Shown piece after piece: positions 6,772 to 16,744 of a DNA stretch of 64,000 bases. Every line of letters begins with the position of its first letter. Positions within the stretch are counted from its first letter, which is position 1. The notes beneath the pieces are model-generated. The model was not told the origin of the DNA. It did no database searches and was given only the letters and a program-made list of their open reading frames with translations. The position numbers were made by a program, and so were the translations under genes. The stretch is from Modestobacter versicolor (GTDB taxonomy: Bacteria > Actinomycetota > Actinomycetes > Mycobacteriales > Geodermatophilaceae), in assembly GCF_014195485.1 (NCBI RefSeq), contig NZ_JACIBU010000001.1, positions 496,001 to 560,000 on the forward strand, given 5' to 3'.

Positions 6772-7965
6772 CTACATGAAGTTGCGGGTGTGCAGCGCGG
6801 AGAGCTCGGCCGCCTCGTCGTCGGGGAACCCGAGCCGCTGCAGCCGCTGCCGGCGGCCGTCGTCCATGGTGCCGTGCAGCCGCTGCACCGCCCGGTGCCC
6901 CCGGGCGATCGCCTCCGGCGTCCACTCGCCGGCGGCGAGCACCACCAGGGAGTCGAAGACGTCGGCGTTGAGCCCGGCGGTGTCGACCAGCACGTCGTGC
7001 CGGCGCTCGACCGCGGCCCGCAGCCGGCCGCGCAGGGTGGGGTCGAGCTGGCCCTCGTGCTCCAGGTGCGCGACCCCGAAGGCGACGTGCCGGGCCTCGT
7101 CGACCCGGGCCAGCCGGGTCACCTGCCGGGTCACCGGGTCGGGGGCGTGCTCGTCGATGAAGCCGAGGAGCGACAGGAAGCTGCCCTCGCCGAGCACGGA
7201 GAGCAGGAACGAGGCGAGGGAGAAGTCGGCCTCGTTGAGCAGCGAGTTCAGCGACTCCCGCCCACCCGCGGACGACGTGCCCATCTGGCCGCCGGTCAGC
7301 AGCGCCCGGCGGGTGAACACCTCCATGTGCCGGGCCTCGTCGGCGGCCTGGACGGCGAGCAGCTGCAGCACCTCCCGGAAGTGCGGGTGCACCCGGGCCA
7401 GCAGCCGCGCCGGGATGACCAGCGCGGCCTGCTCGTTCTCCACCAGGTAGGTCATCACCTGGACGACGGCGGCCTCGATGTCGGCGGGCAGCGGCTCGGG
7501 GATGGTCCAGTCGACGGCGGTCGCCGGGTCCCACTGCGCCGCCGCCGCGTGGGCGTACAGCCGGGGGGCCAGGTCCGCCCAGACGACGTCCCGGTCGGCG
7601 ACGTCGAAGCCCGGGGCCGGCCCGCCCGCCTCGACCAGCGCACCGCGGGCGGCCAGCCCCCAGTGCGCCGGCGGCCGCCGCACGACGCCCTGCGGGGACG
7701 GGTCGCCGGCCCGCTCGGCACCGGCCCAGCGCAGCTGCTCGGCCTCGCCGCGGACGACGTCGTAGCCCCCGTCGGGGTCGACGGAGAACCCGTGCCCCTC
7801 GGCCCGGCACCAGGCGCGCAGGTGCACGCCCAGCGCCGGGTCGTCGCCCCGCACCCGCAGCCGCCCGCCGATGGGCACCTCGCGCAGGCCGCGCCGCACC
7901 AGCAGGTGCGCCCCGGCGTCGAAGCCCAGCCGGTCGAGGTCGACGAGGGCCGCGGGGGGCGTCAC
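6772..7965 (-). CDS. Ferritin-like diiron protein with N-terminal TusA-like domain
   Basis: A 397-residue product. Residues 1-60 resemble a TusA/SirA fold (LDRLGFDAGAHLLVRRGLREV...DDPALGVHLRAWCRAEGH), but the catalytic Cys-Pro is replaced, so it cannot be a normal sulfur carrier. Residues 160-397 are an all-alpha ferritin-like domain with a complete diiron ligand set: a Glu in VENEQAAL (176/178), E210-A-R-H213, Glu260 in LGEGSF and E290-A-R-H293. That pattern fits an oxygen-activating oxygenase or oxidase. The GTG start overlaps the upstream stop (GTGA), making this the third gene of a coupled cassette. Enzymatic role unknown. Confidence 0.75.
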   Translation of the reverse strand: MTPPAALVDLDRLGFDAGAHLLVRRGLREVPIGGRLRVRGDDPALGVHLRAWCRAEGHGFSVDPDGGYDVVRGEAEQLRWAGAERAGDPSPQGVVRRPPAHWGLAARGALVEAGGPAPGFDVADRDVVWADLAPRLYAHAAAAQWDPATAVDWTIPEPLPADIEAAVVQVMTYLVENEQAALVIPARLLARVHPHFREVLQLLAVQAADEARHMEVFTRRALLTGGQMGTSSAGGRESLNSLLNEADFSLASFLLSVLGEGSFLSLLGFIDEHAPDPVTRQVTRLARVDEARHVAFGVAHLEHEGQLDPTLRGRLRAAVERRHDVLVDTAGLNADVFDSLVVLAAGEWTPEAIARGHRAVQRLHGTMDDGRRQRLQRLGFPDDEAAELSALHTRNFM

Positions 7966-8822
7966 GGCCGGTACCCCGCGGCGAGCACGCTCCCGTCGGC
8001 GCCGTAGAACCCCTGCTCGTCGACGGCGGTGGTCAGCGGGCCGAAACCGCTGGTCCGGCCCACCCGCCACTGCCGCAGCCCCTCGAGGTCCAGCAGCGGG
8101 CGCACCACCGGGTCGCCGTAGGACATCGACAGCAGCAGGTCGACGAACCGGTCGGCGAGCTCGGCCGGCGCGGTGTCGACCAGCGTCATCGTGCAGTGGT
8201 CGTACACCGGCGTCTGGGCCAGCACCCGGGTGGCGCCGGACGGCAGCACGCCCTCCTGGCTGAACAGCAGGTGGTTGCCGTCGATCATGCAGGCGGCGTC
8301 GACCTGGCCGGCCATCAGCGCCCGGGCGGCGTCGCGCTCGCCGCCGATGTGGTCGCCGTGCAGCCCGACCCCCACGTCGAACCGCCGCACGGTCAGGTCG
8401 CCCTCCGTGTCCAGCCCCTGGGCGCGCAGGAAGGACAGCGGGAGGAGCGTCGCCTGCGGCGAGTCGACCGCGCCGGTGGCCAGGGTGCGGCCCTTCAGGT
8501 CGGCGACCGCCTCGATGCCGGAGTCGGCGCGGACGACGACCACCGAGGTGAGGTCCTGGTCGGTGTCCCGCATGACCGCCGAGCGCACCGTCCGGCCCGA
8601 GGCCCCGGCCAGCCGCACCGAGCGCACCCAGGCCAGCGGCGAGTTCCAGGCGGCGTCGATCGACCCGGCGACCAGGTCGGCGACCTGCCGCTCGTAGTGG
8701 GAGTAGAGGACGAAGTCGAACGGCAGCCCGGCCTCGGTCAGCCAGCGGCGGAAGCCCTCCCAGATGGTGACCACCTTGGGGTCGTAGGCCACCGCGCCCA
8801 TCACCAGCACGTCGCCGGGCAT
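7962..8822 (-). CDS. PhnD-like substrate-binding protein without signal peptide
   Basis: A 286-residue protein with the fold signature of PhnD/NMT1-type periplasmic binding proteins: VMGAVAYDPKVVTIWEGFRRWL, an Asn-Ser-Pro ligand loop (IDAAWNSPLAWV), LKGRTLATGAVDSPQATL, and VDAACMIDGNHL. It starts MPGDVLVMG with no signal peptide or lipobox, and no permease or ATPase is nearby. It is therefore probably a cytosolic ligand-binding or catalytic derivative. The start ATG overlaps the upstream gene's stop as TGATG, and its own stop overlaps the next start as GTGA. Confidence 0.75.
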   Translation of the reverse strand: MPGDVLVMGAVAYDPKVVTIWEGFRRWLTEAGLPFDFVLYSHYERQVADLVAGSIDAAWNSPLAWVRSVRLAGASGRTVRSAVMRDTDQDLTSVVVVRADSGIEAVADLKGRTLATGAVDSPQATLLPLSFLRAQGLDTEGDLTVRRFDVGVGLHGDHIGGERDAARALMAGQVDAACMIDGNHLLFSQEGVLPSGATRVLAQTPVYDHCTMTLVDTAPAELADRFVDLLLSMSYGDPVVRPLLDLEGLRQWRVGRTSGFGPLTTAVDEQGFYGADGSVLAAGYRP

Positions 8823-9979
8823 CAGGCGGCCGGCCCGTCGAAGAGCGGCTGGCCCAGGCTGATCCGGCCGACGAAGTCGTGCAGCGCGGCGGTGGTGGGG
8901 GCCATCACCCGGGCGGCCAGCGAGTCGCGGAACCGCCGCTCCACGCCCAGCTCCTTGCGGAACGCCGCACCGCCGCACAGCTTCATCACCCCGTCGGCGA
9001 CCTCCGCGGCGGCCTCGGCGGCCACCGCCTTGACCTCGAGCACCCGCAGCGTCGCGTCCGGGCGGCCGGAGCCGAGCGCGGCCAGCGTGTCGGCGAGGAA
9101 CGCGCGGACCCCGTCGACCTGCAGCTTCAGCCGGGCGAACTCGCCGCGGGTCAGCGGCTGCTGGGCGAGGGTCTGGCCCAGGTGCTCCAGCCGGGTGCGG
9201 GTCAGGTGGGCCGCGGCGTCGGCGAGCAGCGCCTCCATCAGCCCGAGGGAGAACGCGGCGCTGCCGACGAGGAAGGTGGGCAGCGCGGTGCCCAGCGCGA
9301 TGTCCAGGCCGGCGCCGTCCGGGCCGAGCTGGGCTGACGCCGGCACGGTCGCACCGTCGGCGCGCACCGGCCGGGAGGAGTTGCCGCGCAGCCCCACCCC
9401 GTCGAACGGGCCGGCCACCGTGACGCCCGGGGTGCTCGAGGGCACCAGCCACAGGGTCATCGGGCCGTCGGCGGCCAGCGGCCGGCTGGACCACAGGTAG
9501 CTGTCGGCCTCGCCGGCGGAGGTGACCCAGCTCTTGGCGGCGTCCAGCCGGACCCGGTCGCCCTCGGCCGTCGCGCTGCTCATCGGCGCCCAGAAGTGGC
9601 TGCGCGACCCCGCCTCGGAGAACGCCAGCGTGCTCAGGTGCTCGCCGCGGACGATCGCCCGGCGGACGTCGTCGGGCCCGTGCGCCTCCAGCACCGCGGT
9701 GGCCGCGTAGTGCATGAGCAGCACCATCCCGGTCGAGCCGTCGGCCGTGGCCACCTGCTCGACCACCCGGGCGACGTCGGCCAGCGAGCCGCCGGCACCG
9801 CCCACCTCGGGGGAGCTGAGCAGGCCCAGGGCGCCGGCGCGGGCCAGCGCCTCGATGCCCTCGCGGGGGAAGGTGCCGGTGGCGTCGACGGTGGCGGCGG
9901 CGGGCGCGATGGTCCCGGCGACGACGGCGTCGACGCGGCCGGCCAGGTCGGTGTCCGGCTGGGTCGGTGCGGTGGTCAT
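8822..9979 (-). CDS. Acyl-CoA-dehydrogenase-fold flavoprotein (possible monooxygenase)
   Basis: A 385-residue flavoprotein of the ACAD superfamily: N-terminal helical domain (LGLLSSPEVGGAGGS at about 51-65), FSEAGSRSHF and KSWVTSAGEADSYLW in the beta domain, and a C-terminal four-helix domain ending KLCGGAAFRKELGVERRFRDSLAARVMAPT. The EGT segment that supplies the catalytic Glu in many ACADs reads APTTA here, which argues against ordinary acyl-CoA oxidation and is compatible with an FMN-dependent N- or S-oxygenase of the DszC/SfnB kind. The ATG at 9979 fits the family start. First gene of the coupled three-gene cassette; a 16-bp dyad lies 44 bp upstream. Confidence 0.82.
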   Translation of the reverse strand: MTTAPTQPDTDLAGRVDAVVAGTIAPAAATVDATGTFPREGIEALARAGALGLLSSPEVGGAGGSLADVARVVEQVATADGSTGMVLLMHYAATAVLEAHGPDDVRRAIVRGEHLSTLAFSEAGSRSHFWAPMSSATAEGDRVRLDAAKSWVTSAGEADSYLWSSRPLAADGPMTLWLVPSSTPGVTVAGPFDGVGLRGNSSRPVRADGATVPASAQLGPDGAGLDIALGTALPTFLVGSAAFSLGLMEALLADAAAHLTRTRLEHLGQTLAQQPLTRGEFARLKLQVDGVRAFLADTLAALGSGRPDATLRVLEVKAVAAEAAAEVADGVMKLCGGAAFRKELGVERRFRDSLAARVMAPTTAALHDFVGRISLGQPLFDGPAA

Positions 9980-10055: not shown

Positions 10056-10850
10056 TCAGCGGGGCGCCACCCGGAAGACCGGCCAGCCGATCTCGGTGCG
10101 CCAGGCGGCCGGGTCGGGGGTGTCTCGGGGGCCGACGAGGTAGGTCTCCCGCACCGGGCCGGCCACGGCCAGCGCGTTGCCGACCACCCACCGTCCGAGC
10201 TCGCCGTAGGTGACGTCGATGTCGTCGTGCTCCCCGGCGTGCACGGTGACGGCGAGCTCGACGGCCGGCAGGGTGACCGGCCGCACCCGGCCGCTGCACG
10301 GCGGGTCCGCCGTCGGCAGGTGGACGAGCAGGTGCCCGCGGCCGTCCTCGAACAGCGCGTTGTCGTACAGGCCCCCCGGGACGCCGGTGGGCGCCGTGAC
10401 CAGCGCGTCCAGCTCGGCCATCGCGCCGGCGTACCAGGCGAGGACGTCGTCGGCGGCCACGTCGTCCTCGATGGCGGCGACCGTGGTCGCCGGCACCGCG
10501 CGCAGCTCGACGTCCAGCGGGGCCGGCCCCGGGCGGAGCAGCCGGCGCAGCGACACGACCGCGGCGCGGGTCCGGTCCAGCTCGGACTCCAGCCGCTGCA
10601 GGTGGTCGGCGACCAGCCCGGCCCGGGTGCGGGGGTCGGGGGAGCGCAGGATCCGCTCGACGTCGGGCAGCGGGACGTCGAGCTGGCGCAGCCGGTGGAT
10701 GACCTGGGCGGTCGGGATCTGGTCGGCGCTGTAGGAGCGGTAGCCCGTCCCGTCGTCCACCGCGGCCGGCTCGAGCAGCCCGGCGTCGTGGTAGCGCCGC
10801 AGGGTGCGCACGCTGAGGTGGGTCAGCCGCGAGAACTCGCCGATCGACAT
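10056..10850 (-). CDS. MerR-family regulator with GyrI-like effector domain
   Basis: A 264-residue MerR protein: winged helix MSIGEFSRLTHLSVRTLRRYHDAGLL at 1-26 with GYRSYSADQI in the wing, a dimerisation coiled coil (about 75-110) and a C-terminal GyrI/AraC-type effector-binding domain (about 118-264: VELRAVPATTVAAIEDDV ... YLVGPRDTPDPAAWRTEIGWPVF). Such domains bind small hydrophobic or drug-like ligands. It is divergent from the SnoaL-like gene; two dyads of MerR-operator form lie between them, one next to each start. The ATG at 10850 is the canonical MerR start. Confidence 0.92.
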   Translation of the reverse strand: MSIGEFSRLTHLSVRTLRRYHDAGLLEPAAVDDGTGYRSYSADQIPTAQVIHRLRQLDVPLPDVERILRSPDPRTRAGLVADHLQRLESELDRTRAAVVSLRRLLRPGPAPLDVELRAVPATTVAAIEDDVAADDVLAWYAGAMAELDALVTAPTGVPGGLYDNALFEDGRGHLLVHLPTADPPCSGRVRPVTLPAVELAVTVHAGEHDDIDVTYGELGRWVVGNALAVAGPVRETYLVGPRDTPDPAAWRTEIGWPVFRVAPR

Positions 10851-10866
10851 CACGCGTGCACTGTGC

Positions 10867-10917
10867 ACCCTCTCCCTGCGGGAGGGTCCAGCGCTTGACC
10901 CTCCCGTAGCGGGACGG
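10867..10917. promoter_or_regulatory. Paired MerR-type operators in a divergent promoter
   Basis: Two dyads sit 31 bp apart: ACCCTC...GAGGGT (10867-10887) on the MerR side and CCCTCCCG-TAG-CGGGACGG (10899-10917) on the SnoaL side. Each is preceded, for its own gene, by a -35-like hexamer (TGGACC on the minus strand at 10885-10890, TTGACC on the plus strand at 10895-10900). Between them a larger perfect repeat, CGGGAGGGTC/GACCCTCCCG (10879-10888 and 10897-10906), reflects the mirror arrangement. This is the classic MerR layout with the operator in the promoter spacer. Confidence 0.6.
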
Positions 10918-10931
10918 CGCACGGTCGCTGC

Positions 10932-11288
10932 ATGACCACACCGACAGCAGTCCCGCCCACCGGGCTCCCGGCCCGCGTCCAGGAGTTCCTCACCGCGCAC
11001 ACCGCCCGCGACGCCGACACCGCCGTCCGCGCGTTCACCCCGGACGCCGTCGTCACCGACGAGGGGCGCACCTTCCGCGGCACCGAGGAGCTGCTCGGCT
11101 TCCTCCGGCACTCGGGCTCGGAGTTCAGCTACACGACCGAGCTGACCGCGGTCGAGCGCCTGGACGACGAGCACTGGGTGGCGGTCAACCACCTGGAGGG
11201 GGACTTCCCCGGCGGCGTCGTCGACCTGGCCTACCGCTTCACCCTGGTCGGCGACCTGATCGCGGAGCTGGTCATCGCCCCCCGCTGA
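10932..11288 (+). CDS. SnoaL-like (NTF2-fold) small protein
   Basis: A 118-residue cone-fold protein: helix VQEFLTAHTARDADTAVRAFTPDAVVTDEGRTFRG is the usual opening of SnoaL-like/DUF4440-type domains, followed by a curved sheet (WVAVNHLEGDFPGGVVDLAYRFTLVGDLIAELVI). These folds serve as small-molecule isomerases or binding proteins; no catalytic residues can be assigned. It is divergent from the MerR gene and probably its target. The ATG at 10932 lies 15 bp past the operator dyad, so the message may have a very short leader. Confidence 0.85.
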   Translation: MTTPTAVPPTGLPARVQEFLTAHTARDADTAVRAFTPDAVVTDEGRTFRGTEELLGFLRHSGSEFSYTTELTAVERLDDEHWVAVNHLEGDFPGGVVDLAYRFTLVGDLIAELVIAPR

Positions 11289-13877: not shown

Positions 13878-15200
13878 ATGGCAATGACGTCCTCGTCCGG
13901 AGCAGGCACCCTCCCTCGCCGGGAGCCGCTCGTCGGCGGCGACCTCCACGTCCCGGTCGGCGGCGAGCTGCGTCGCTACGTGGACCTGGACGCCGCGGCC
14001 ACCACGTCGGCGTCGGCGGCCGTCGTCCGTGCCGTGGCGGACTTCCTGCCGTGGTACTCCAGCGTCCACCGGGGAGCCGGGCAGAAGTCGCAGGTCGCCA
14101 GCGCCCGGTACGAGCAGGCCCGCGAGAGCCTCGTCCGGTTCGTGGGAGCGGACCCGGCGACGCACGTCGCCCTGTTCCCGCGGAACACCACGGAGGCCCT
14201 GAACCTGGTCGCCTTCCGGCTCGGTCTCACCCGGGACGACGTCGTCGTCACGACCGCGGTCGAGCACCACGCCAACCTGCTCCCGTGGCGGCGGCACGCG
14301 CGGTTGCGGGTCGTCGACGTCGACCGGACCGGCACCTACGACGTCGAGACGGTCATCGCCGCCCTGGACGAGCGCCCCGCGCCACGCGTGCTGGCGGTCT
14401 CCGGGGCGTCCAACGTCACCGGCTGGCTGCCCGACCTCGCCGCGATCGCCGCGGCGGCGCGGGACCGTGGCGTGCTGGTGGTGGTCGACGGCGCGCAGCT
14501 GGTGCCGCACCGGCAGGTGGAGATGGCGGCGCTCGGCATCGACGTGCTGGCCTGGTCCGGGCACAAGATGTTCGCGCCCTTCGGCGCCGGTGGCCTGGTC
14601 GTCCCGCGGCGGTTGCTCGCCGACGGTGAGCCCTTCCTCGTCGGGGGTGGGTCGGTCAAGGCGGTCTCCTACGACGAGGTCGTCTGGGCGGACACCCCCG
14701 ACCGGGACGACGCGGGCTCGCCCAACGTCGTCGGCGTCGTGGCGCTCGCCGCGGCCGCCGAGGAGCTGGCCGCCGGCCGCGGGCGGGACCGGGTCCGGGA
14801 GGAGGCGCTCGTCCACGCGCTGGACGACGAGCTCGCCACCGTCCCGGGGCTCCGTCGCCTGGGGGCCACCACCGGCGACCGGCTCCCGGTGGCCGCCTTC
14901 GTCATCGACGGGGTGCACCACGGCGAGGTCGCCGCCCGGTTGGCCCGCGATCACGGGATCGGGGTGCGCAGCGGCTGCTTCTGCGCGCACCCCTACCTGG
15001 GCCGCCTGCTCGAGCTGACCGCGAGCGAGGTGGAGCAGTTCCACCGGGACGCCCGCGCGGACCTCCACGACCGGCTCCCGGGGGCGGTGCGCGTCAGCTG
15101 CAGCTCGGCCACCCCGCTGGCCGACGTCGCCCTGCTGGGCGGAGCCCTGCGCGGGATCGCCTCCTCCGTGCCGCAGCGACGCCTGACCGCCGTGCCCTGA
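13878..15200 (+). CDS. Class V aminotransferase / cysteine desulfurase-like PLP enzyme
   Basis: A 440-residue fold-type I PLP enzyme. The Schiff-base Lys is near 230 in SGHKMFAPFGAGGL; the His of EHHANLLPW stacks on PLP; DGAQ supplies the pyridine-N Asp. A Cys-containing loop RSGCFCAHPY (Cys near 367 and 369) recalls SufS-type desulfurases. The N-terminus YVDLDAAATTSASAAVVRAVADFLPWYSSVHRGAG matches the family. No Suf or Isc partner is adjacent, so it may serve a dedicated role rather than housekeeping Fe-S assembly. AGGAG lies 5 bases before ATG 13878; a second ATG is 6 bases later. A 234-bp gap with no recognisable gene precedes it. Confidence 0.9.
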   Translation: MAMTSSSGAGTLPRREPLVGGDLHVPVGGELRRYVDLDAAATTSASAAVVRAVADFLPWYSSVHRGAGQKSQVASARYEQARESLVRFVGADPATHVALFPRNTTEALNLVAFRLGLTRDDVVVTTAVEHHANLLPWRRHARLRVVDVDRTGTYDVETVIAALDERPAPRVLAVSGASNVTGWLPDLAAIAAAARDRGVLVVVDGAQLVPHRQVEMAALGIDVLAWSGHKMFAPFGAGGLVVPRRLLADGEPFLVGGGSVKAVSYDEVVWADTPDRDDAGSPNVVGVVALAAAAEELAAGRGRDRVREEALVHALDDELATVPGLRRLGATTGDRLPVAAFVIDGVHHGEVAARLARDHGIGVRSGCFCAHPYLGRLLELTASEVEQFHRDARADLHDRLPGAVRVSCSSATPLADVALLGGALRGIASSVPQRRLTAVP

Positions 15201-15219
15201 CGTCGAGAGCTGCGCGTTC

Positions 15220-15266
15220 GTGCGCGGATCGCGGTGTCCGCGGGCCGGACACCGCGATCCGTGCAC
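15220..15266. repeat. 20-bp-stem perfect-class hairpin
   Basis: The arms 15220-15239 and 15247-15266 pair over 20 bp with one G-T wobble (core GGATCGCGGTGTCC/GGACACCGCGATCC), with a 7-base loop. It starts 20 bp after the desulfurase-like gene stop. It is longer and more perfect than the other terminators here, so it could be a terminator or a repetitive extragenic palindrome. Confidence 0.7.
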
Positions 15267-15290
15267 AGCGGCGTCCCGGTGATACATGCT

Positions 15291-15304
15291 CATATGGGTA
15301 TATG
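15291..15304. promoter_or_regulatory. A/T-rich dyad before ArsR gene
   Basis: CATAT-GGGT-ATATG lies 9 bp before the ArsR start codon, in the only A/T-rich patch of the area. Short AT-rich dyads overlapping the promoter are typical ArsR operators. It may also include a -10-like TATGGT. Confidence 0.45.
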
Positions 15305-15312
15305 GTGCCGCC

Positions 15313-15651
15313 ATGGCCAGAGCAGCAACGACGTCGGACGTGTTCAACGCGATCGCCGAACCGCAGCGCCGCCGGATCCTGGTGCTGCTGCGAGGGGGCG
15401 AGCGGCCGGTGACCGAGGTGGCCCGGGAGCTGGGGATGCCGCAGCCGGGCGCCTCCAAGCACCTGCGGGTGCTCCGCGAGGTCGGGCTGGTGCGCGACCG
15501 CACATCGGGCAGGCAGCGGCTGTACGGCCTGGACGCCCGTGGGTTGCGGCCGGTGCACGAGTGGACCGGCGGGTTCGAGGAGTTCTGGGCCGGGAGCTTC
15601 GACCGGCTGGACGCGTACGTGCAGGAGCTGGCGCAGGAGGAGCGGCGATGA
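15313..15651 (+). CDS. ArsR-family transcriptional regulator
   Basis: A 112-residue winged-helix regulator: DVFNAIAEPQRRRILVLLRGGERPVTEVARELGMPQPGASKHLRVLREVGLV (about 9-60) is the full ArsR HTH. It has no metal-binding Cys motif, so it probably belongs to the non-metal subgroup that sits next to SRPBCC/AHSA1 genes. ATG 15313 is the family start; the upstream AT-rich dyad would be its operator. Its stop overlaps the next start as ATGA, heading a three-gene coupled operon. Confidence 0.93.
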   Translation: MARAATTSDVFNAIAEPQRRRILVLLRGGERPVTEVARELGMPQPGASKHLRVLREVGLVRDRTSGRQRLYGLDARGLRPVHEWTGGFEEFWAGSFDRLDAYVQELAQEERR

Positions 15652-16124
15652 GCGCGACGGCCGATCGGGAGATCGTCGTCTCGCGGGTCGTCCACGCCCC
15701 ACCGGAGCTGGTGTTCGAGGCGTTCACCGAGGTGCGGCACCTGTCGCGGTGGTGGGGCCCCGACGGGTTCAGCACCACCACGCGGTCCTTCGCGTTCCGC
15801 CCCGGTGGGGAGTGGGAGTTCGTGATGCACGGACCGGACGGGACCGACTACCCCGAGTGGATCTCCTGGACCGAGATCGTCCCGCCGGAACGGATCGCGC
15901 TGCTGCACGGTGAGCGCCCCGGCGACCCGGACGCCTTCGAGTCGGTGATCACGTTCGCGCCCGACGGTGCGGCGACCCGGGTCGAGATGCGCACGGTGTT
16001 CGCCACCCGGGCGCAGCGCGACGAGGCCGTCGAGCGGTACTCGGCGATCGAGGGCGGCCGGCAGACCCTGGCCAACCTGGCCACGTACGTCACCGAGGTC
16101 GGCCGGACGGGGGCCCAGGGCTGA
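15648..16124 (+). CDS. SRPBCC / AHSA1-domain protein
   Basis: A 158-residue helix-grip protein of the AHSA1 (DUF1801-like START) group: VVHAPPELVFEAFTEVRHLSRWWGPDGFSTTT, FRPGGEWEFVMHGPDGTDYPEWISWTEIVPPERI, then a long C-terminal helix region. It probably binds a hydrophobic ligand. Its place after the ArsR gene is a widespread actinobacterial arrangement. It overlaps both neighbours (ATGA upstream, TGATG downstream), so the three proteins are made together. Confidence 0.92.
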   Translation: MSATADREIVVSRVVHAPPELVFEAFTEVRHLSRWWGPDGFSTTTRSFAFRPGGEWEFVMHGPDGTDYPEWISWTEIVPPERIALLHGERPGDPDAFESVITFAPDGAATRVEMRTVFATRAQRDEAVERYSAIEGGRQTLANLATYVTEVGRTGAQG

Positions 16125-16744
16125 TGGCCGGGAAGGTGTTCTTCAGCGTGTCGATGTCGCTGGACGGGTTCATCGCGCCCGAGCCGCCCGAGGAGCTCAT
16201 GGGACGGCAGTGGCGGGAACTGCAGGCGTGGGTCTTCCCGCAGCGGTACTTCCGCGAGCGCCTCCACCTGGGCGAGGGCGGAGAAGAGGGGCGGGACAAC
16301 GACGTCCTGCGGGAGACGTTCGAGCGCACCGGCGCGAGCGTGATGGGCAGGCGGATGTTCGACGCCGGTGAGCACGCGTGGCCGGAGGAGGCGCCGTTCC
16401 GCACACCGGTCCTCGTCGTCACGCACCAGGAGCGGGACCCGTGGGAGCGACCGGGCGGCACCACCTTCTCCTTCGTCACCGACGGCATCGAGGCCGCGCT
16501 CGACCGGGCCCGCGAGGCCGCCGGTGACCGGGACGTCCGGATCGCGGGCGGCGGGGCGACGATCGGGCAGTACCTGGACGCCGGCCTGGTCGACGAGTTC
16601 TCGGTCGCGGTCTCCCCGGTGCTGTTCGGCTCCGGCGTCCGCCTGTTCGACGGGGTGGACGCCGGCCGGGTGGCCTTGGAGCAGGTCCGCGCGGAGTCCA
16701 CGGCGCGGGTGACCCACCTGACCTACGCCGTCCGGCGGCGGTGA
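16124..16744 (+). CDS. Dihydrofolate-reductase-family (RibD C-terminal-like) protein
   Basis: A 206-residue protein with the DHFR/RibD-C fold: VFFSVSMSLDGFIAPE at the N-terminus, SVMGRRMFDAGEHAW, TFSFVTDGIEAALDRAREAAGDRDVRIAGGGATIGQYLDAGLVDEFSVAVSPVLFGSGVRLFDG. These bind NADPH and reduce unknown substrates; true DHFR or riboflavin activity is unlikely. It is third gene of the ArsR-SRPBCC operon and starts within the preceding stop codon (TGATG). A second family member lies at 62795-63421. Confidence 0.92.
   Translation: MAGKVFFSVSMSLDGFIAPEPPEELMGRQWRELQAWVFPQRYFRERLHLGEGGEEGRDNDVLRETFERTGASVMGRRMFDAGEHAWPEEAPFRTPVLVVTHQERDPWERPGGTTFSFVTDGIEAALDRAREAAGDRDVRIAGGGATIGQYLDAGLVDEFSVAVSPVLFGSGVRLFDGVDAGRVALEQVRAESTARVTHLTYAVRRR

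Follow-up and report, generated by a model that had tools for sequence, protein, structure and literature searches.

The stretch of DNA analysed here, hereafter the window, comprises 64,000 nucleotides of the Modestobacter versicolor genome (assembly GCF_014195485.1, contig NZ_JACIBU010000001.1, positions 496,001-560,000; genome G000 in our numbering). Within it, three minus-strand genes encode a flavoprotein (P0001), a binding-type protein (P0002) and a TusA-like/diiron protein (P0003), and this trio is associated across bacterial genomes with the selenocysteine (Sec) machinery. The genes follow one another in the order P0001, P0002, P0003 and overlap translationally. A first-pass annotation had described overlaps of TGATG and GTGA between them, and direct reading of the sequence confirms both. 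The features, in window coordinates, are as follows.

8822..9979, minus strand: P0001, ACAD-fold flavoprotein, 385 aa (open reading frame and Pfam)
7962..8822, minus strand: P0002, cytosolic PhnD/PtxB-fold binding-type protein, 286 aa (open reading frame, Pfam and fold model)
6772..7965, minus strand: P0003, TusA-like domain plus predicted AurF/ferritin-type diiron domain, 397 aa, GTG start (open reading frame and Pfam)
7753..7941, minus strand: TusA-like N-terminal domain of P0003, about residues 9-71, without the CPxP cysteine (Pfam)
6976..7593, minus strand: predicted diiron four-helix domain of P0003, about residues 125-330, bounds estimated (alignment; ligands E178/E210/H213/E260/E290/H293)
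8820..8824, minus strand: TGATG, overlap of the P0001 stop and P0002 start (read directly)
7962..7965, minus strand: GTGA, overlap of the P0003 start and P0002 stop (read directly)

P0001 matches all three Pfam domains of acyl-CoA dehydrogenases (ACAD), PF02771, PF02770 and PF00441, over gathering. Where solved relatives carry the catalytic YEGT, P0001 has MAPT (residues 359-362), which is invariant among 43 aligned sequences, and alignment with these relatives places Ala360 at the position of the catalytic Glu. The earlier description of a flavoprotein of this fold lacking the catalytic EGT segment is thereby borne out. Replacement of the catalytic Glu on an ACAD fold is also seen in SfnB, MsuC and DszC, which are flavin monooxygenases. 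In contrast to these, P0001 scores higher against dehydrogenase and reductase models, and its NCBIfam matches to SfnB and DszC are weak, at 82 and 41 bits; its activity is something we infer from fold and context.

P0002 belongs to the Phosphonate-bd family (PF12974, 107.5 bits), and its nearest folds are PtxB, PhnD1 and HtxB, which bind phosphite, methylphosphonate and hypophosphite, together with the arsenic proteins ArrX/AioX. Strand 1 of the fold begins already at residue 6 in a high-confidence structure model, which suggests that there is no export signal. No transporter genes lie directly beside P0002 at the window locus, where the nearest neighbors of the trio are MerR and SDR genes. 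P0002 therefore has the fold of a PhnD-type ABC transporter binding protein but differs from periplasmic PhnD, PtxB and HtxB in having no visible export signal and no adjoining transporter genes, much as the first-pass annotation had supposed. The residues H155-G-D157 and D208-H209-C210 are invariant among 47 aligned sequences, and a transporter-type protein from another locus (L150) lacks these HGD and HC motifs.

The C-terminal part of P0003 is predicted to be an AurF/ferritin-type diiron oxygenase domain. It matches the AurF Pfam model at 31.9 bits (gathering, 29.6); among five orthologues, two are over gathering, one is below it and two are unmatched. The expected diiron ligands E178, E210, H213, E260, E290 and H293, which form two E...ExxH sets, are invariant in 39 aligned and three distant sequences. 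At the N terminus, the match to Pfam TusA is sub-threshold (20.6 bits; gathering, 28.6). The active site of TusA sulfurtransferases is the cysteine of a CPxP motif; inspection of the corresponding stretch of P0003 found no cysteine, and C53 is replaced by Ala in two distant orthologues (L144 and L148). P0003 is thus TusA-like, yet not a persulfide carrier of the usual type. The earlier label of a TusA-like/diiron protein holds for the diiron ligands, whereas the TusA cysteine is absent.

The three families also occur together well beyond the window, as a translationally coupled unit. A scan of species genomes with three P0003 orthologues gave 224 relatives, and the locus counts given here refer to the best 80. 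These come from seven phyla, several represented only by metagenome bins: Actinomycetota, Chloroflexota, Planctomycetota, Myxococcota, Pseudomonadota, Acidobacteriota and Rokuibacteriota. P0001 is present at 75 of the 80 loci, and of the other five, four are truncated by the end of a contig, which leaves L074 as the one genuine exception. Three genes passed a full-length filter at 67 loci, and at 65 of these they are collinear and tightly spaced (median gaps, -1 and -4 bases); the two exceptions have a 693-base gap (L114) or P0003 in first place (L127). Ten loci failed the filter on at least one gene; at six of them (L102, L112, L122, L130, L135 and L138) the sole reason for the failure of P0001 was that the alignment overran a natural gene end. 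The arrangement is far beyond chance. Among 246 genomes of the window's class, 87 match P0003 at an E value of 0.001, but only three (G000, G163 and G046) do so over its length; the other matches are partial or remnants, mostly of the diiron or the TusA-like part. In a tree of 83 P0003 proteins, Streptomyces appears in several separate places. At the exception L074, from Actinomycetospora straminea, the P0003 match is missing residues 1-44 and has neither P0001 nor P0002 beside it, apparently a decaying copy.

The link to the Sec machinery is seen first at the level of whole genomes. Fifty of the 80 loci were picked by hand before the result was known and, with L104 removed, gave 49 genomes. 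SelD is over its curated cut-off in all 49, as against 70 of the 246 class genomes, and SelA is present in the same 49; these co-occurrence counts, like the Fisher values for SelD and the trio, ignore the relatedness of genomes. Within Streptomyces, SelD is found in 12/12 genomes with the trio and in 2/20 of the class sample. Ten further trio genomes (G000, G163, G046, G419, G399, G340, G330, G360, G337 and G477), the last seven of which have a distant P0003, all contain SelD and SelA, the G477 SelA being a fragment below cut-off. Conversely, full-length trio orthologues are confined to SelD-positive class genomes, of which 3/70 have them; the other 176 class genomes have none.

The link is also seen in gene order. 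SelA, SelB or SelD is encoded within the flanks (≤10 kb) of 16 of the 80 loci, against a rough chance rate of 0.7% per locus, an estimate that assumes two sel loci in 8 Mb. One locus reads selD, trio, selA, selB on a single strand (L118) and another selD, trio, selA (L099); L101 and the distant L148 share the order selD, selA, selB, trio, while in Variovorax L135 the order is selA, trio, selB, and selD lies on the opposite strand. In G151, a 56-residue P0003 remnant directly precedes selD. When neighboring proteins were clustered and Micromonospora synteny was set aside, SelD, SelB, SelA and formate dehydrogenase (read in two halves) were among the most frequent non-trio clusters. A family tally of 98 of 176 flanking proteins, hand-picked for size and including one L148 SelA that is not among the nearest genes, has SelD as the commonest family (5/98), with the others scattered. 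On the P0003 tree the sel-linkage label changes 13 times, at least 10 of which are forced by well-supported branches, which indicates that the neighborhood was gained or lost many times. In the window genome itself, SelA and SelD are encoded about 1.2 Mb from the trio, so joint transfer fails to explain their co-presence there, and the selenium link is invisible from the window. We conclude with high confidence that, in Sec-decoding bacteria, the trio belongs to selenium metabolism as an accessory operon. Of the interpretation in the first-pass annotation, a cytosolic binder and two oxidative enzymes acting on a heteroatom compound survive; the phosphonate, sulfonate or amine proposed as substrate is unsupported, as the association is instead with the Sec machinery, both genome-wide and at the operon level.

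Neither of the two selenoproteins tested accounts for this association. Formate dehydrogenase (TIGR01553) was considered as a universal partner but is over cut-off in only 48 of 59 trio genomes; among the remainder, four have no match to the alpha subunit at 1e-40, six have matches of only 140-150 bits and one (G419) has fragments only. The UGSC selenoprotein is found in 8/36 trio genomes and in 1/27 SelD-positive genomes without the full-length trio (Fisher P = 0.066). As neither tracks the trio, it appears to be the Sec machinery as such, and not either of these two products, with which the trio is associated. In the best matches checked, stops occur only at the natural ends of the trio genes and none is internal, indicating that in these matches none of P0001, P0002 and P0003 is a selenoprotein. 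A search for in-frame TGA codons conserved around the trio produced, among the hits listed, synteny and shadow-frame noise, from which no conclusion is drawn.

A second group of relatives carries other third genes. The nearest NCBIfam families are the "Rv1679 family acyl-CoA dehydrogenase" for P0001 (NF049984; 349 bits, curated cut-off 600) and the "Rv1680 family SBP-like protein" for P0002 (NF049985; 243.7 bits, curated cut-off 400), both scores being far below cut-off, so that neither protein is a member. In the available text of PMC8562490, Rv1680 is assigned, solely on structural grounds, as a putative component of a phosphonate transporter. Three genomes (G082, G428 and G625) encode a P0001-like protein, a P0002-like protein and a TusA-like radical SAM protein, in that order. 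In G082 and G625 the third protein exceeds the cut-off of the Rv1681 family (NF049973), and its G428 counterpart shares 42% identity with the G082 protein along its length; the G082 N terminus has a TusA-like stretch (Pfam TusA E value of 0.032, below gathering). The trio and the Rv1679 (FadE16)-Rv1680-Rv1681 genes of the Mycobacterium tuberculosis type thus have first and second genes that are homologous and identically ordered, and a third gene that is TusA-like at its start, but in the latter it continues as a radical SAM rather than a diiron protein, and SelD has no match at 1e-40 in G082, G428 or G625. In G453 a MetE-like protein follows P0002, with SelA present and no SelD match at 1e-40. 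The G428, G453 and G625 loci contain genes for an MTAP-like phosphorylase, a family 2 glycosyltransferase, a TIGR04282-like protein and a DoxX-like protein, a set that we take to resemble the mycobacterial methylthioxylose genes. This likeness suggests a methylthio (sulfur) compound as the substrate of the non-selenium branch. An MTAP-like gene is also present at the loci of distant trio genomes (L144, L147 and L149).

The trio is probably part of selenium metabolism, in a branch that uses oxygen and has not been described. The explanation that we favor, tentatively and at rather less than an even chance, is that it uses O2 to release the selenium of a small organoselenium compound, which is probably methylated, and so feeds SelD and then SelA. 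Judging from fold and context, P0001, its dehydrogenase base lost, would oxygenate the selenium compound. P0002 would hold a small oxyanion-like intermediate such as methylseleninate or selenite, because these resemble the methylphosphonate and phosphite of its nearest structures, and its conserved His, Asp and Cys might act chemically. The diiron site of P0003 would remove or oxidize the carbon substituent, as an oxidative demethylase, with the TusA-like domain serving as a putative docking or delivery module, and the product, selenite or selenide, would reach SelD and then SelA. In G082, G428 and G625, which have no SelD match, the TusA-like radical SAM protein takes the place of P0003. A wider scheme, an O2 pathway from organoselenium to Sec in aerobes in which a core of flavoprotein and binder is combined with an interchangeable third enzyme on a shared TusA-like docking domain (diiron for selenium, radical SAM for sulfur), is more doubtful.

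The parallel that weighed most in this reasoning comes from the mlp genes. According to the available portion of PMC10418091, type I mlp clusters of anaerobes contain a corrinoid methyltransferase, show evidence for methyl-selenide use and are accompanied by Sec machinery in 87% of species, while a non-selenium mlp clade is tied to methylthioadenosine salvage. The trio is like these clusters in its strong co-occurrence with Sec machinery, sometimes in the same cluster, and in having a non-selenium branch with a possible link to methylthioadenosine salvage. It differs in that, by Pfam and NCBIfam, no trio protein is a corrinoid protein, a corrinoid methyltransferase or an Mlp homologue, and the predicted diiron domain leads us to expect O2-dependent chemistry, unlike that of mlp. 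O2-dependent selenium release is proposed because the trio has an mlp-like two-branch pattern with unrelated O2-type enzymes, and by this analogy our best reading is that the trio would be an aerobic counterpart of the anaerobic corrinoid (mlp) methyl-selenide salvage. YedF, as described in the accessible part of PMC5322559, likewise fuses a TusA/SirA-like domain to a second domain and is linked to selenium genes; its second domain is DsrE-like and its SirA-like domain has CPxP, whereas P0003 has a diiron domain and no CPxP. In the selenium-gene study and reviews that were word-searched, there is no mention of acyl-CoA, phosphonate or TusA, while SirA-like proteins are discussed in the study. 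Selenium demethylation is ascribed to methanogens, iron reducers and sulfate reducers in the available part of a selenium-cycling review.

Searches of the open PMC literature listed no characterized pathway or operon with this combination and no aerobic organoselenium salvage operon. The earlier statement that the trio could not be matched to a described pathway therefore stands, NCBIfam naming only the Rv1679/Rv1680 relatives. The acquisition of selenium by aerobic Sec-using bacteria is poorly understood. A compact operon that is tied to Sec machinery in every trio genome searched, with loci from seven phyla and sometimes lying between selD and selA, offers a direct handle on this process. 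Such an operon would also give a functional label to the unexplained families of the Rv1679-Rv1680 type, and it suggests that diiron and radical SAM domains can stand in for one another behind the same TusA-like domain.

Several observations weigh against oxygen-dependent selenium release. No sel gene lies in the flanks of 64 of the 80 loci or in the window. SelD is common in the window's own order (84/121 genomes), so co-occurrence within that order alone says little, and most SelD-positive Actinomycetes lack the full-length trio, which makes it a dispensable accessory. Two Sec genomes with P0001 and P0002 have no close P0003: G284 (SelD and SelA) has one weak, partial 41-bit match, and G500 (SelD, and SelA in two pieces) has none. 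Genomes with SelD and without SelA, which would be expected to gain from a pure selenium supply, were not seen among the trio genomes, although no search was aimed at them. Three genomes represent the radical SAM type that accompanies P0001 and P0002 and on which the non-selenium branch is based. Moreover, six SelD-positive genomes of the window's order encode radical SAM proteins with a weak likeness to Rv1681 (261-279 bits, cut-off 380), so that radical SAM and selenium form no clean opposition; these proteins match only outside the TusA-like part, and in the 14- to 18-kb stretches of four of the six there is no P0001. The methyl group of the substrate is drawn from analogy and from the MTAP-like neighbors of relatives, not from neighbors of close orthologues. 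The selenium link is strong, whereas the chemistry proposed for the trio is inferred.

Other explanations fit parts of the same evidence. The trio might make a small molecule, with or without selenium, by enzymes that depend on a selenoprotein, which would give rise to its Sec dependence. Dependence on SelA as well as SelD is what this predicts, and the relatives with other third genes adjoin sugar-transfer genes and an MTAP-like phosphorylase; we nonetheless consider it unlikely, as no common selenoprotein neighbor was identified and the two selenoproteins tested, UGSC and formate dehydrogenase, fail to track the trio. We judge a selenium chaperone to be slightly less probable still. Here P0002 would carry selenophosphate or selenite inside the cell from SelD to SelA or back, and the two redox proteins would maintain the selenium oxidation state. 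Selenophosphate and selenite both resemble phosphite, the P0002 fold is nearest to phosphite/hypophosphite binders, the trio sits between selD and selA at L118 and L099, and every trio genome searched has SelA and SelD. Two oxidative enzymes are, however, hard to account for in this way, most SelD-positive class genomes manage without the trio, and relatives are present in genomes without a SelD match.

The two remaining explanations attach the trio to a single product or to no selenium function at all. Hitch-hiking on mobile Sec islands, with the trio oxidizing a phosphonate, sulfonate or amine, is compatible with movement of P0003 between genomes, which the scattering of Streptomyces on its tree indicates, but the presence of SelD in all trio genomes where the genes lie far apart, as in G000, and the 64 loci lacking flanking sel genes make it improbable. 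It is harder still to credit the trio as a maturation or support factor of Sec-containing formate dehydrogenase: although the genes for this enzyme lie in the flanks of 8 of the 80 loci, about 70 bases downstream of P0003 at L077, eleven trio genomes with SelA and SelD have no match, a 140- to 150-bit match or fragments, as noted above.

Other features touch on the trio and its relatives. Upstream of P0001, separated by 76 bases and oriented alike, is a gene for a MerR regulator that carries a GyrI-like ligand domain (window 10056-11192, minus strand); it could be co-transcribed with the trio or control it. A search of PLSDB gave no match to plasmid-borne trio copies. In SelD-positive genomes, Rv1681-like radical SAM proteins adjoin PhnD-like binding proteins without P0001 (L180, L181 and L182), a possible further variant. 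At Variovorax L135, a second PhnD-like protein and a member of an ABC ATPase neighbor cluster are encoded directly beyond selD of the Sec cluster (14506-16201); this PhnD-like protein scores 72 bits to P0002 and 166 bits to the transporter-type protein of L150. The ABC ATPase cluster was rejected as a single partner of the trio, as it mixes different kinds of transporter.

In the window genome, about 16 kb from selA, a gene for a PhnD-like protein with a possible export signal is followed by one for a permease-like protein (L167, 6175-9565; labels by sequence reading); together they may form a TIGR04553-type importer of selenium oxyanions. Outside the window, the same genome encodes a tRNA-Sec (L168, 5097-5188, minus strand; RF01852, 64.3 bits) with anticodon CTA, and its formate dehydrogenase gene and two UGSC-family genes carry in-frame TAG. 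M. versicolor thus appears to decode UAG as Sec, a reading reported for Geodermatophilaceae in the available text of PMC5330540.

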